DNA of 64,000 nucleotides from Candidatus Aminicenantota bacterium. Lineage in GTDB: Bacteria > Acidobacteriota > Aminicenantia > Aminicenantales > Aminicenantaceae. Within the stretch, counting starts at the first letter, position 1. The number at the start of each line of letters is the position of its first letter. The stretch lies in assembly GCA_020348385.1 (NCBI GenBank), contig CP070750.1, positions 1,558,615 through 1,622,614 on the forward strand, in the 5' to 3' direction. Positions 46,094-52,889 of the stretch are shown here, piece by piece. Under the pieces are notes generated by a model, which had not been told where the DNA came from, did no database searches, and saw only the letters and a list, made by a program, of their open reading frames with translations. The translations under genes and the position numbers were made by a program.

Positions 46094-47326
46094 TTATAAC
46101 TCATAGTTGGATTCAAGGGTTCTTCTAGGCAGGAGGGGATTGAGTCTCAACAATATTTTATAGGTCGAAATAGATTCCCAATCAGCCAATTGATTCGCGA
46201 ATATAGTATGTGGTCCTTGTGATCCGATCAAGATCACTTCATCTCCGACACCAACTGGGGAATCGAGATCCAGACGAACCTCCAAATGATTGGCTGTGAT
46301 GTCACCGATGAGCGGATATTTCTGTCCTTTGATCAGTACCCACCCCTTTCCCACGATACTGTATGGATAGCCATCGGAATACCCGACCGGGATGACAGCC
46401 ATTTTTTCCTTTGTTTTTGCTGTGTAGGCCCGGTGGTAAGAAACAGAATCACCGGGACGGAGTATCTTAACGGCCGCCACTCGGCTTTTGAATTGGAGGA
46501 TAGGCTTGAGGGATAGATGGTCTTCTTTTTGTGTTTTTTGGTTTGGGTAATAGCCGTACAGGAGGATACCTGGTCTGACCATGTCTAGAAAGGATGATCC
46601 GGCCGTGAAAATGCCCGCGCTGCTGTAAGCGTGTTTCAAGCCGATTCGGATACCATTTTGTTCGGCTTTTTGGCAAACGGAAAGGAATCGCTCCATCTGG
46701 ACTTTGTCGAATTGCGGATCTTCCGTTAGAGTCGTTGATATTCCCTGGATCCGGATGCCTTCTAGAGAGGCAACTTTTTCGATATAACCCCCGGCTTTAT
46801 GATAGGGGAGGCCCATCCGTCCCATGCCCGTATCGATGTGGATATGGGCTTCGATCTTTTTACTCGCTTTTTGGGCATTCTGGCTGAGGATTTGGACATC
46901 ATCCGTGAATATGGACTGGGATATCCCGTGTTTTACCATGAGATCGGCATCCTCCGTATACATTGGGCCAAAATTCAAGATCGGACACCTCACCCCCGAT
47001 TCCCGGAGTTGGATGGCTTCGGAAAGCTTGCAAACCATCAAGGCATCGATACCTGATTTATCCAAGAATCGTCCCACTTCCTGCAACCCATGTCCGTAGG
47101 CATTGGCTTTAATCACTGCCATAACCGGGACACTGACACGTTGTTTGATTGTATTGAGATTCCATGCCATGTTCGGCAGATTCAATTCAATCCATGTGTC
47201 TTGGACAGGTTCATTTGACTTTTTTGGATGAACGGAAACATAAGGTTTAAGAGATTTTTCCATTGCGAGGCAAGTTGGGAGACCGAGGCCTGAGGCGATT
47301 AAAAATTCTCTTCTAGAAAATGGCAT
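46094..47326 (-). CDS. alr: Alanine racemase with Tat-type signal
   Basis: A 410-residue PLP-dependent racemase. The core has VIKANAYGHG with the PLP lysine, the HIDTGMGRMG segment, and VSYHRAYT...IPVGYSDGYP around the catalytic Tyr. C-terminal ITANHLEVRLD is typical. The start at ATG 47326 has GGAGGGGAAA upstream and opens with FSRREFLIASGLGL, a twin-arginine motif (SRREFL). That suggests export, more like periplasmic broad-specificity racemases than cytosolic Alr. A further in-frame start at 47353 is less likely. Divergent from the M23 peptidase. Confidence 0.87.
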   Translation of the reverse strand: MPFSRREFLIASGLGLPTCLAMEKSLKPYVSVHPKKSNEPVQDTWIELNLPNMAWNLNTIKQRVSVPVMAVIKANAYGHGLQEVGRFLDKSGIDALMVCKLSEAIQLRESGVRCPILNFGPMYTEDADLMVKHGISQSIFTDDVQILSQNAQKASKKIEAHIHIDTGMGRMGLPYHKAGGYIEKVASLEGIRIQGISTTLTEDPQFDKVQMERFLSVCQKAEQNGIRIGLKHAYSSAGIFTAGSSFLDMVRPGILLYGYYPNQKTQKEDHLSLKPILQFKSRVAAVKILRPGDSVSYHRAYTAKTKEKMAVIPVGYSDGYPYSIVGKGWVLIKGQKYPLIGDITANHLEVRLDLDSPVGVGDEVILIGSQGPHTIFANQLADWESISTYKILLRLNPLLPRRTLESNYEL

Positions 47327-47406
47327 TTTCCCCTCCAAAATTTTACTCTCCAATTCTAACCGATTTTATGCCGAAAAATAAACATGCCTACCGAATAATT
47401 CAGGGA

Positions 47407-48330: not shown

Positions 48331-48451
48331 TTGGGGACAAGATACGTTTTCACCAATTATACAGCCACTGAACAGGAGTCATATTCATGACTGGTTTTGA
48401 AACAAAGACATTAATAAACCTTAATTGATGAAAACGTATCCTGTCCCCATT
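48329..48451. repeat. REP/MITE-like 123-bp inverted-repeat element
   Basis: Left arm 48329-48359 and right arm 48421-48451 are 31 bp each and pair with about three mismatches and one indel. The shared core reads GGGGACARGATACGTTTTCA. This motif resembles the ends seen with REP-associated (Y1-type) transposases. No transposase gene is in the window. The left arm begins in the stop codon of the M23 gene. Confidence 0.8.
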
Positions 48452-48458
48452 CCAATCA

Positions 48459-48487
48459 TTGACAACGGGGTTTGGGGTCTCTATAGT
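48459..48487 (+). promoter_or_regulatory. Near-consensus sigma70 promoter of the phosphoglycerate mutase gene
   Basis: TTGACA (48459-48464), exact 17 bp spacer, TATAGT (48482-48487). It starts 8 bp after the REP-like element. Predicted start near 48494. Confidence 0.75.
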
Positions 48488-48513: not shown

Positions 48514-50118
48514 ATGAGTGACAAGATAGATTTCAACAAGGATATCCCGATGGTGGAAGCGATCCGACAAGCCTACAAAGAAGGCCAGGAAGATGAGGCT
48601 TTGGAACCACTTGTCGCTGTCGATTCCGCTGGCCATCCCACAGGTCGTTTTCAAGATGGTGATTCCGTAATCTTTTATGATATTCGCGGAGAAAGAGAGA
48701 TTGAAATAACCGAGAGCCTGACAGATCCTCAGTTCGATCACTTCCAGACCGGCAAAGATATTCGGCTCCATTTTGTGACCATGATCGAGTACAATTCTGC
48801 CCTGGACGTCAAGGTTGCCTTCAAGCCGGACAAAGAAATCCGGAATACCTTGGCAGAAATGATAACAAAAGCTGGGATGAAACTCCTGAAGATAACAGAA
48901 TCTGAAAAAGTCATCCACGTGGGGTATTTTCTGAACGGGAAAAAGGAGAAAAAATTTCCTGGAGAAAAAATGGTTGTTATCCCATCTCCGGAAGGCGTGG
49001 CGAATTATGCTTTGACTCCGGAGATGAGCGCGCCAGAAGTTGCCGATGAAATTTGTTCAAGTCTCGATAATCCCGACTTTCCTGTGATTGTGGCCAACAT
49101 GTCCAATGTGGATGTTGTAGGGCATATTGAGGACCAAGAAGCGATCCTGAAAGCTGTGCAAGCTGTGGATCAAGCCCTAAAGAAAATATTGGAAGCCTGT
49201 GAACAGAAGGAAATAACGCTCATCGTCACGGCCGATCATGGCACCGTGGAGGAATGGTTATATCCTGACGGCGCGGTTAACACCGGGCACACCAAAAATC
49301 CAGTTCCCTTTATCCTAGCCGATTTTTCCTCGGAAAATCCCTCTCGATGGACCTTGAGAAAAAAGGGGGAATTAACAGATGTTGCCCCGACTGTTCTGGA
49401 ATTACTCGGTCTTCAAAAGCCTGAAGAGATGACCGGGTTCAGTTTGATCGAAAATTTCCCAAAGTCTGAATTATCCGGAAGAAAGATTCTCCTTTTGATA
49501 TTGGACGGATGGGGAATGAGGGAAGAAGAACAGGGCAATCTTATACAAAAGGCCCAAACTGAAACCTTCGATCGCATCTGGGCCCAGTTTCCTCATACCC
49601 AACTGGAAGCTGCGGGAGAGTCGGTGGGTATGCCTCCCGGCACGGTTGGGAATTCTGAATCAGGCCATCTCCACATCGGCGCAGGCCGACGTATTTTTTT
49701 GGATAGAGTCAAAATCGACAAAGCGATCGAAGACAAAAGCTTTTTTCAAAATCCTTCAATTATCTGGGCCATGGAAAAAGCGAAAGAGTCAAATAACGCC
49801 TTGCATCTTTTGGGGATCGTTTCCCACTACAGCTCTCATGGCACGATTGATCATCTGTTTGCCTTGTTGCGTATGGCAAAAAAATTAGGCGTAAATAAGG
49901 TGTTCGTTCATGCTTTACTCGGGCGACGAGGGGAGAGGCCGGAAAGCGGAGCGATCTATGTGGCCAAAGTGTCAGATATGTGCCGGGAACTTGGCTTGGG
50001 GGAAGTAGTCACAGTAATCGGACGTTTCTGGGCCTTGGATCGGGAATTCAATTGGGACCGGGTTGAGAAAACCTACAGAGCCTTGATCCAAGGAGAGGGA
50101 ACGCCAGTGCCTCGTTAA
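48514..50118 (+). CDS. Circularly permuted cofactor-independent phosphoglycerate mutase
   Basis: A 534-residue iPGM-type protein with swapped halves. Residues 1-312 match the second half of normal iPGM: VEAIRQAY, GRFQDGDSVIFYDIRGER, HFVTMIEYN, EKVIHVGYF, DVVGH, TADHG, GHTKNPVPF, then TDVAPTVLELLGL and MTGFSLI. Residues 323-530 match the first half: LLLILDGWG, PHTQLEAAGESVG, GNSESGHLHIGAG, TIDHLFALLRMAKK, GRFWALDREFNWDRVEK, ending GEG. Metal ligands D200, H204, D241, H242, H259, D331 and catalytic S381 are kept. The substrate loop DGRD reads GRRG (470-473) and SDGGVHSH is altered. It should interconvert 2- and 3-phosphoglycerate or a related phosphate. A 3-codon ORF ends over its ATG. Confidence 0.9.
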   Translation: MSDKIDFNKDIPMVEAIRQAYKEGQEDEALEPLVAVDSAGHPTGRFQDGDSVIFYDIRGEREIEITESLTDPQFDHFQTGKDIRLHFVTMIEYNSALDVKVAFKPDKEIRNTLAEMITKAGMKLLKITESEKVIHVGYFLNGKKEKKFPGEKMVVIPSPEGVANYALTPEMSAPEVADEICSSLDNPDFPVIVANMSNVDVVGHIEDQEAILKAVQAVDQALKKILEACEQKEITLIVTADHGTVEEWLYPDGAVNTGHTKNPVPFILADFSSENPSRWTLRKKGELTDVAPTVLELLGLQKPEEMTGFSLIENFPKSELSGRKILLLILDGWGMREEEQGNLIQKAQTETFDRIWAQFPHTQLEAAGESVGMPPGTVGNSESGHLHIGAGRRIFLDRVKIDKAIEDKSFFQNPSIIWAMEKAKESNNALHLLGIVSHYSSHGTIDHLFALLRMAKKLGVNKVFVHALLGRRGERPESGAIYVAKVSDMCRELGLGEVVTVIGRFWALDREFNWDRVEKTYRALIQGEGTPVPR

Positions 50119-50185: not shown

Positions 50186-51097
50186 ATGAGCGTAGAAATC
50201 CAACAAATCCATTTTAGCTACGGGAAAATCAAAGCCCTGAATGGGATAGACATCCGCTTACCCCAGGGTGCCATCGGTCTTTTAGGCCCCAATGGCGCGG
50301 GAAAAAGCACTCTTCTGCGTATTTTGCTGGGTTTCCTCGTTCCGGACAGCGGCGAGGGGAGTGTCCTGGGATATGATATCAGGAGTCAGCAAGCCATGAT
50401 CCGGCGTTATGTGGGATACATGCCCGAGGACGACTGTTTCATTCCAGGAATGGATGCGGTTTCCTTCACATCTTATATGGGAGAGCTCTCCGGAATGCCC
50501 CGCCAGGAGGCCATGAAGCGATCCCATGAAGTTCTTTATTATGTCGGACTGGAAGAAAGCCGCTACCGCATGCTGGAGACCTATTCGGCCGGAATGCGAC
50601 AGCGTCTCAAACTGGCCCAATCCATCGTGCACGATCCCAAACTTATTTTTCTGGATGAACCCACCAGCGGACTGGATCCTCAAGGGAGAAAGGAAATCTT
50701 GGAGCTGATAATGGATATCTCCTCCAAAAAGGACATCCAGGTTCTGATCTCTTCCCACATCCTCCCCGACATCGAACAAACCTGTTCATACGTGGTGATC
50801 CTGAACAAAGGAGAAATGGCGGCTGAAGGTCAGATCAGCGAACTCAAGCAGGTCCAATACAGTCTTTATGAACTGAAAATCAAAGGGGAGGAACAGGCAT
50901 TTCTGGATAGATTGGCAAGCATGGACAGCCAGGTGGAACAGACTGAGGATAAGCTATTGAAGGTTTATCTTTCCCCAGGCACGGATCCCCAAGACATTTT
51001 TAAGATTGCGGTCGAGGAAAAGGTTCAGATTCGACATTTTGTCAAAAGCCAGACATCGCTGGAGGATCTGTTCGCCAAAGTGGTGGGAGTGGATTGA
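50186..51097 (+). CDS. ABC transporter ATP-binding protein (first pair)
   Basis: A 303-residue ATPase of the CcmA/NatA type. Walker A is GPNGAGKST at about residues 34-42, the signature YSAGMRQRLKLAQ and Walker B LIFLDEPTSGLDP. The C-terminal 80 residues are the usual variable extension. The stop overlaps the next permease's ATG by one base (TGATG), so the two are coupled. It probably forms an exporter or a gliding/lipid-type permease complex; substrate unknown. Confidence 0.92.
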   Translation: MSVEIQQIHFSYGKIKALNGIDIRLPQGAIGLLGPNGAGKSTLLRILLGFLVPDSGEGSVLGYDIRSQQAMIRRYVGYMPEDDCFIPGMDAVSFTSYMGELSGMPRQEAMKRSHEVLYYVGLEESRYRMLETYSAGMRQRLKLAQSIVHDPKLIFLDEPTSGLDPQGRKEILELIMDISSKKDIQVLISSHILPDIEQTCSYVVILNKGEMAAEGQISELKQVQYSLYELKIKGEEQAFLDRLASMDSQVEQTEDKLLKVYLSPGTDPQDIFKIAVEEKVQIRHFVKSQTSLEDLFAKVVGVD

Positions 51098-51966
51098 TGA
51101 CGATCAAAGAGAGAGGGTATGCCCACTGGGACGGTGAGCTTCAGGACGGAAGGTTTCCCTGGTGGCCGATAACTCGGATTGGCATCAGATTGACGTTCAA
51201 GAGAAAGTTTTTTAAATTTTTCTTTGGGTTCACACTGATTCCTGCTTTAGTTTGGCTTGTGGGGATTTATGTGTCCGAGAGGCTAGAAGATTTTAAGTTT
51301 ATGATGGAAGGGGAAACGGATTTTTTAAACGTGAATCCCCTGTATTTCAAAACGTATTTTACCAATGATTTTTTGCTGTTCATGGTCGTCATGATCCTGG
51401 TTTTCTGCGGGGCTGGCCTGATCGCCGATGACCTCAGGCACAATGCTCTCCAACTCTACTTCGCCCGTCCTCTCAAAAAGCGGGATTATCTGACGGGCAA
51501 GGCGGCCGTCATCTTTTTCTTCCTGTTTATCGTGACGTTGATCCCAGGGATTGTGTTCATTCTCTTCAAGCTGATATTCGCCGGCAATTTTCAATTTTTC
51601 GCCTCTTATCCCTGGTTGATTCTGTCTGTCATTGCCTACTCAGTGCTGATAACGACCTTTTTCGCTTTTTATACCCTGCTTCTTTCCTCCATCGGGAAAA
51701 ACCGGAGATACGTGTCGATCCTTATCTTCGGCGTCTATATCTTCTCTGATATTTTTTCTGCAATATTTAAGGAAATTTTCCGGAGCCATTACTTTTATCT
51801 CCTATCGATCAAATCCAACCTTCAGCAGGTCGGTGCGGTTTTATTCGATCAACGAACTCCTTGGAACATTCCCTGGTATTATTCGCTTACGGTTATCATC
51901 GCCATCTGCTTGTTTTCTGCCTACATTCTCAAACAGAGGGTCAGGGGAGTGGAGATCATCAAATGA
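51097..51966 (+). CDS. ABC transporter permease (first pair)
   Basis: A 289-residue ABC-2-type membrane protein with about six hydrophobic helices. The typical DDLRHNALQLYFARPLKKRDYLTGK segment follows the second helix. It ends in an ATGA overlap with the next ATPase, so four genes at 50186-53703 form one operon. Confidence 0.85.
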   Translation: MTIKERGYAHWDGELQDGRFPWWPITRIGIRLTFKRKFFKFFFGFTLIPALVWLVGIYVSERLEDFKFMMEGETDFLNVNPLYFKTYFTNDFLLFMVVMILVFCGAGLIADDLRHNALQLYFARPLKKRDYLTGKAAVIFFFLFIVTLIPGIVFILFKLIFAGNFQFFASYPWLILSVIAYSVLITTFFAFYTLLLSSIGKNRRYVSILIFGVYIFSDIFSAIFKEIFRSHYFYLLSIKSNLQQVGAVLFDQRTPWNIPWYYSLTVIIAICLFSAYILKQRVRGVEIIK

Positions 51967-52889
51967 CGGCCATTATCCAAACTCAAAATCTATCCAAATG
52001 GTACGGAAATGTCCTGGGATTAAGCGATGTGACTCTAGAGATAGAACAAGGTATCACAGGAATTCTGGGGCCCAACGGTGCAGGAAAATCGACGTTCCTC
52101 AAGTTGATAACCGGACAGATTAAATCCAACATCGGCTCGGTCACCATAATGGGCCAACCGGTCTGGAATAATTATCCTCAATTTTCGGAGATCGGATTTT
52201 GCCCTGAACAGGATTCTTTTTATGGGGAGATGACAGGCTGGCAATTTCTCACAAGCCTTTTGCGGCTTTATCACCTCTCGTCGACAGAGATCGAAAAAAA
52301 AGCGGATAAGGCCCTGGAAATCGTCGAACTGAGCGAGGACAAAAATCGTGCCGTTCGATCTTACAGCCGGGGGATGCGGCAGAGACTCAAGGTTGCCCAA
52401 TCCATCGCTCACGACCCCAAGATCATCATCCTGGATGAGCCTTTGAACGGTTTGGATCCTTTAGGACGACGCAAGATCATACGGCTGATCAAGGAGTACA
52501 AAGGGGAGGGGAGGACCATTGTCGTTTCCAGCCACGTGCTCCCAGAGATCGAAGCCATGACAAATCAGATCATCCTAATTCACCAGGGAAAGATTTTTGC
52601 CCAGGGCGACATCCACTACATCCGTGACCTGATCGAAACTCACCCCCACATCATCTCGATCAGGTGCAGCGATCCCCGGCAGCTCGCCCAGAAGTTTATC
52701 CATCACGATTTTGTGTTGAAGGTCAATTTCGGTCTGAAAAAAGGAGTTCTTCTTGTCGAGACCAACAGCCGGGATAAGTTTTTTGGCCTTTTGCCTTCGC
52801 TTTTTGTGGAGAATCAAATAGAAGTGGAGGAGATTACCTCCCCCGATGACAACCTTCAGGCCGTTTTTGATTATTTGATAGGGAAATGA
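51963..52889 (+). CDS. ABC transporter ATP-binding protein (second pair)
   Basis: A 308-residue ATPase from ATG 51963, which overlaps the permease stop as ATGA. Walker A GPNGAGKST is at about residues 37-45, signature YSRGMRQRLKVAQ and Walker B IIILDEPLNGLDP. A longer reading frame from 51861 lies wholly inside the permease gene and is not believed. Close in design to the first ATPase, probably from duplication. Confidence 0.92.
   Translation: MTAIIQTQNLSKWYGNVLGLSDVTLEIEQGITGILGPNGAGKSTFLKLITGQIKSNIGSVTIMGQPVWNNYPQFSEIGFCPEQDSFYGEMTGWQFLTSLLRLYHLSSTEIEKKADKALEIVELSEDKNRAVRSYSRGMRQRLKVAQSIAHDPKIIILDEPLNGLDPLGRRKIIRLIKEYKGEGRTIVVSSHVLPEIEAMTNQIILIHQGKIFAQGDIHYIRDLIETHPHIISIRCSDPRQLAQKFIHHDFVLKVNFGLKKGVLLVETNSRDKFFGLLPSLFVENQIEVEEITSPDDNLQAVFDYLIGK

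Follow-up and report, generated by a model that had tools for sequence, protein, structure and literature searches.

The stretch of DNA analysed here (the window) comprises 64,000 nucleotides of a Candidatus Aminicenantota genome (contig CP070750.1, positions 1,558,615 to 1,622,614 of the forward strand). The open reading frame at 48514-50118 on the plus strand is a single intact gene with an ATG start, 534 amino acids plus a stop and no internal stop. Its product is related to the cofactor-independent phosphoglycerate mutase (PGM) iPGM/GpmI, with the two halves of the protein in swapped order. The features of the locus are listed below, with site equivalents given as residue here = residue in standard iPGM.

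48459..48487, plus strand: near-consensus sigma-70-type promoter, TTGACA-17-TATAGT, directly upstream of the start codon
48514..50118, plus strand: circularly permuted iPGM-like gene (ORF; Pfam, NCBIfam and PDB sequence searches)
48550..49449, plus strand: residues 13-312, the former C-terminal half (alignment), holding the second part of the transferase domain followed by the larger share of the phosphatase domain; R58/R61 = R261/R264, K132 = K336, D200 = D403, H204 = H407, D241/H242 = D444/H445, H259 = H462
49450..49473, plus strand: residues 313-320, new linker between the old C- and N-termini
49474..50103, plus strand: residues 321-530, the former N-terminal half (alignment); D331 = D12, S381 = nucleophile S62, H442 = H123, R472 = R153, R504 = R185, R510 = R191
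49921..49935, plus strand: residues 470-474, GRRGE, replacing D151-G-R-D154-(T/V/A) of standard iPGMs (alignment)
50104..50115, plus strand: residues 531-534, the new C-terminal end, a remnant of the old linker beyond GEG

A TTGAC(A)...CTATAGTATAGGCTT element recurs upstream of the permuted genes of many relatives, and the argument for the promoter is this recurrence across loci; such sites are no more numerous in the region than expected by chance. An inverted pair, GGGGACA(A/G)GATACGTTTTC, with copies about 80 bases apart (48333-48448), lies a short way upstream of the promoter and resembles a small repeat or REP-like element. The neighbourhood is conserved in Aminicenantia, with an M23 peptidase upstream and ABC transporter genes downstream. 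This is not so in families f10, f15 and f29, so the neighbours give no lead to the substrate, and no hint of one was found in the neighbourhoods compared from Aminicenantia, f10, f15 and f29. In the window, the downstream genes (50186-52889, plus strand) encode two ABC ATPases, with membrane proteins between and after them, syntenic in most of the Aminicenantia compared. An alanine racemase is encoded at 46094-47353 on the minus strand (TIGR00492, 295 bits against a cut-off of 168); it has an N-terminal twin-arginine-like signal, SRREFLIA, and is possibly exported, which is unusual for Alr. A similar alanine racemase gene was present in 2 of the 20 neighbourhoods compared.

Standard iPGMs have the order phosphatase N-terminal part, transferase insert, phosphatase C-terminal part. 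This order is absent here, and the C-terminal half comes first. Sequence searches of Pfam, of NCBIfam (TIGR01307) and of the PDB all returned two stretches with the order swapped; a standard-order alignment over the full length, which would speak against a permutation, was looked for in these searches and none was found. Query residues 13-312 matched TIGR01307 at 213-504, and the match to B. stearothermophilus iPGM (1ejj) placed query 14-312 on 217-509 and query 321-530 on 2-211 (415 bits in total, E=3e-123). The iPGM_N domain (PF06415) begins at query residue 401. The TIGR01307 score, obtained as two swapped stretches, was 502.5 bits against a curated cut-off of 330.65. Both halves therefore match the parent iPGM in swapped order inside one continuous ORF. 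The cut point is the GEG/(P)LEAI linker (B. stearothermophilus 212-216) within the transferase domain, and the cut is clean, since this linker, the site of the new termini, is the only part of the parent left uncovered. The new linker at 313-320 (about 8 residues) differs in sequence and length between relatives. The initial annotation had proposed this architecture: the C-terminal half before the N-terminal half, which the Pfam, TIGR01307 and 1ejj alignments bear out; a cut at the GEG/VEAI linker inside the transferase domain, placed there also by the 1ejj alignment; and a short linker joining the old termini.

It is vanishingly improbable that an assembly or reading artefact produced the swapped order. 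The homologs with the same order that the initial annotation proposed to look for were found, unbroken over their full length, in dozens of assemblies made independently; they are 52-85% identical, and the linker is collinear in 41 of 41 aligned permuted copies. Because 44 copies from separate genomes share the order, an error near the linker is ruled out.

An AlphaFold2 model calculated on the alignment of permuted proteins (pLDDT 89.8, pTM 0.81) gave 22 PDB matches at E<0.001, all to iPGM entries. The matches cover about 230-330 columns with TM scores of 0.37-0.49; the aligner is sequential, so about half was aligned, as expected when such an aligner meets a permutant. The phosphatase domain of standard iPGM is discontinuous, and the domain bounds follow the established anatomy of the enzyme. 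On these bounds, the permutation keeps both crossings, and the alignments show that it makes the phosphatase domain contiguous and splits the transferase domain between the termini.

The metal ligands (D12, D403, H407, D444, H445 and H462 in standard numbering) and the nucleophile S62 are kept in all 44 permuted copies, in line with the initial annotation, which had recognized the ligands and the catalytic Ser381. H123, R153, R185, R191, R261, R264 and K336 are kept in 43-44 of the 44. As the dimetal/serine phosphotransfer centre is intact, phosphoserine at Ser381 should still form. The substrate loop at 151-154 reads DGRD in 33 of 33 standard sequences, which include Pseudomonadota, Bacillota and Bacteroidota, and GRRG in 44 of 44 permuted ones, followed there by an invariant E and then K/R-P-E-S. 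With the change from DGRD to GRRG, which the initial annotation had not noted, Asp154 is lost. In B. stearothermophilus iPGM, Asp154 is the base that activates the substrate hydroxyl, a role reportedly derived from the work of Jedrzejas and co-workers on 1ejj. Around His123 (120-124), the GGVHS of standard enzymes is YSSHG in the permuted ones; beside Arg191, DRD is changed to DRE (E192 occurs in some standard copies too); and between Arg261 and Arg264, D263 is E in permuted copies.

A site was scored as clade-switching when the permuted and the standard group were each fixed, to 90% or more, for a different residue. Of the 17 such sites, 14 are no more than 4 residues away from a catalytic residue, compared with 3.1 expected, a figure seen in 0 of 20,000 random draws. 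Distance was taken along the sequence rather than in three dimensions, and the draws ignore the clustering of conserved sites near catalytic residues. A shared ancestral stem also fixes many changes together. The cluster has the pattern of a retuned active site, which is not proof of one. Because the transferase pocket differs from that of iPGM, mutase activity on 3-/2-phosphoglycerate cannot be assumed.

The genome, a single 4.35 Mb contig, carries one permuted copy, and no standard-order iPGM was found on that contig. The closest named relative copy, from a Candidatus Aminicenantes MAG, is 85% identical and has the same order, and the 44 permuted copies come from separate genomes, mainly of Candidatus Aminicenantes relatives. 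In a search of 60 genomes of relatives (this genome included), the permuted gene or fragments of it were found in 48, mostly as one collinear match, a count that excludes three weak non-specific matches. In the class and phylum surveys, several families of Aminicenantia showed the permuted order, as did f10 within the class and, outside it, f29 and f15, the latter in 2 of 12 genomes. The f15 genome G315 carries both forms of iPGM, standard and permuted, on different contigs, and in another genome, G349, the permuted copy is the only iPGM found. The permuted gene is absent from many near-complete f6 relatives. Other strong matches in Acidobacteriota consisted of two separate pieces, and 16 proteins extracted from the phylum had the standard order, at about 40% identity. 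The whole-genome searches covered Acidobacteriota; beyond the phylum, one six-pattern scan covered GTDB contigs, plasmids and viral contigs. No relatives were found in the viral contigs scanned. In the plasmid scan 45 records matched, all below 60% identity; the 12 matches listed were two-piece, and the 7 that were fetched all read as standard order with DGRD.

For tree building, the permuted proteins were rotated into standard order, and 44 permuted and 33 standard sequences were analyzed by IQ-TREE. All permuted sequences fall into a single clade (UFBoot 100), whose stem measures 0.68 substitutions per site. FastTree trees of the separate halves recovered monophyly in both, with support of 0.93 for the N-terminal half and, weakly, 0.35 for the C-terminal half. 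The trees show that the permuted clade is monophyletic, with a single origin. The f29 copies cluster with those of f10 (99), whereas support for where the f15 copies belong is low (58). Since most f15 members have the standard order, its permuted copies were likely acquired by transfer between lineages; the donor is not fixed. We infer that the permutation took place early in Aminicenantia history or in a donor, followed by inheritance and by passage to a few other Acidobacteriota. Tandem duplication followed by terminal loss, which the initial annotation had put forward, is a plausible route, of which no intermediate was seen. Between the window copy and that of a genus mate, dN is 0.08 and dS 0.97; these values indicate a conserved, functional gene under strong purifying selection.

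The genome also encodes enolase and, on the same contig, another phosphoglycerate mutase.

L131:952-2208, minus strand: intact archaeal-type PGM of this genome (NF003160, 550 bits against a cut-off of 468)

The initial annotation had asked whether the permuted gene is a dedicated paralog or the only glycolytic mutase of the organism, and had suggested a search for a normal gpmI or gpmA. Neither was found, and the archaeal-type PGM was found instead. With this gene present, the permuted gene as the only PGM of the genome was rejected as the favoured reading, and a dedicated paralog is the likely one. Cofactor-dependent PGM, considered as a backup, was not found in this genome, and among the relatives searched it scored above cut-off only in G022 and G031. 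In the archaeal-type PGM of this genome, Glu occupies the His position of the DxAGHDG motif of the archaeal enzyme (3idd). We take this His to be a metal ligand, and because Glu replaces it, the activity of this PGM stands as annotation only. Among the 48 relatives that carry the permuted gene, 42 have at least part of an archaeal-type PGM, the rest being mostly incomplete assemblies. The near-complete f6 relatives without the permuted gene retain it, so the permuted enzyme is not required for the PGM step as annotated. The permuted enzyme was also considered as a substitute for a missing phosphoserine phosphatase. No serB above cut-off was found in the 60 relatives; as it is missing with and without the permuted gene alike, its absence is uninformative.

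Some relatives carry a second high-scoring apgM homolog, PGM-like in appearance. The one tested (L032:1501-2670, plus strand) is homoserine-kinase-like, with TIGR02535 above cut-off, and was rejected as an extra PGM. It lies directly downstream of an ORF resembling threonine synthase and invites misannotation as a PGM.

Compared with known enzymes, the protein is homologous over both halves to iPGM/GpmI (TIGR01307; 1ejj, 1o98, 2ify) at about 40% identity, and shares its dimetal/Ser centre and its phosphate- and carboxylate-binding Arg/Lys/His residues. It differs in the swapped halves, in GRRG(E) for DGRD, and in other invariant site changes at 120-124, 187-192, 263, 404 and 447. The archaeal-type PGM (TIGR00306/NF003160) found elsewhere in the genome belongs to the same alkaline-phosphatase superfamily, but is unpermuted and has another transferase domain; the match of the query to TIGR00306 was local, 32 bits over a C-terminal stretch only. 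Homoserine-kinase-like homologs of the archaeal-type PGM (TIGR02535) and PhpG (NF038358) show that the superfamily has been re-used for other small-molecule phosphate or phosphonate transfers, but they belong to the archaeal-type branch, have the standard order and show only weak local similarity to the query.

The gene at 48514-50118 is a true natural circular permutant of iPGM, of ancient date and inherited across a clade, in which the substrate loop has been remodelled invariantly. Because neither the standard domain order nor the DGRD loop was found when tested, we class it within the iPGM fold family as a permuted branch and do not call it a gpmI ortholog. In the proposed mechanism, Ser381 would take its phosphate from a small phosphorylated carboxylic acid bound by R58, R61, K132, R472, R504 and R510. 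The D151-G-R-D154 loop, which would position and deprotonate the glycerate hydroxyl, is replaced by the equally invariant GRRGE(K/R)PES together with other site changes, and the enzyme most likely moves or removes phosphate on a related, different small phospho-acid, while the archaeal-type PGM would cover glycolysis.

The residues that the permuted protein retains could also belong to a working phosphoglycerate mutase isozyme, in which the permutation is neutral and the changed loop, though specific to the lineage, still holds glycerate. The metal ligands, the Ser, His123 and all six Arg/Lys contacts are kept, and with them the Arg/His contacts to 3-phosphoglycerate; TIGR01307 is passed well above its cut-off; the predicted promoter is strong and the gene apparently monocistronic, which is typical of a housekeeping gene; the genome has lower glycolysis with enolase; and G349 has this as its sole iPGM. 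The role of Asp154 could have passed to E474, its neighbour in the loop, or to E511. Against these points are the loop, DGRD in 33 of 33 standard sequences and invariantly different in 44 of 44 permuted ones, the clustering of switching sites at the active site, the archaeal-type PGM already present in this genome and most relatives, and the lack of the permuted gene in many near-complete f6 relatives. We regard an isozyme as possible, at less than an even chance. The missing Asp154, as the presumed activator of the acceptor hydroxyl, would also suit a phosphatase, whose dimetal/Ser centre hydrolyses small phosphate esters and returns no phosphate to an acceptor, or a decayed remnant. This is unlikely, since an enzyme acting purely as a phosphatase would have no use for a conserved transferase pocket, and strong purifying selection and invariant transferase-domain residues, including the new invariant loop, speak against decay.

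We consider that the permuted enzyme probably acts on another small phospho-acid rather than as a second PGM. The fuller reading is slightly favoured: a new subfamily, founded by one ancient iPGM permutation with the substrate loop replaced afterwards or in a coupled step, that would act as a phosphomutase or phosphotransferase on such a phospho-acid across Aminicenantia and would have moved into other Acidobacteriota.

In the open-access literature, which leaves most subscription journals outside, we found no paper joining phosphoglycerate mutase with a circular permutation of its own, and neither the iPGM papers nor the 702-genome survey searched mention one. To our knowledge, few enzymes of central metabolism are natural circular permutants, and this permuted iPGM occurs widely in an entire class of bacteria. 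Nature has thereby set up a test of whether the open/closed hinge cycle of iPGM is constrained by domain topology. The permuted iPGM is also an annotation trap, as it passes the curated gpmI cut-off while being permuted and lacking the loop invariant in every standard iPGM examined; databases, in which it is annotated as gpmI, probably mislabel a distinct enzyme as an ordinary phosphoglycerate mutase. If its substrate does differ, the permuted enzyme would give the alkaline phosphatase superfamily a new activity, from a group that is mostly uncultured.
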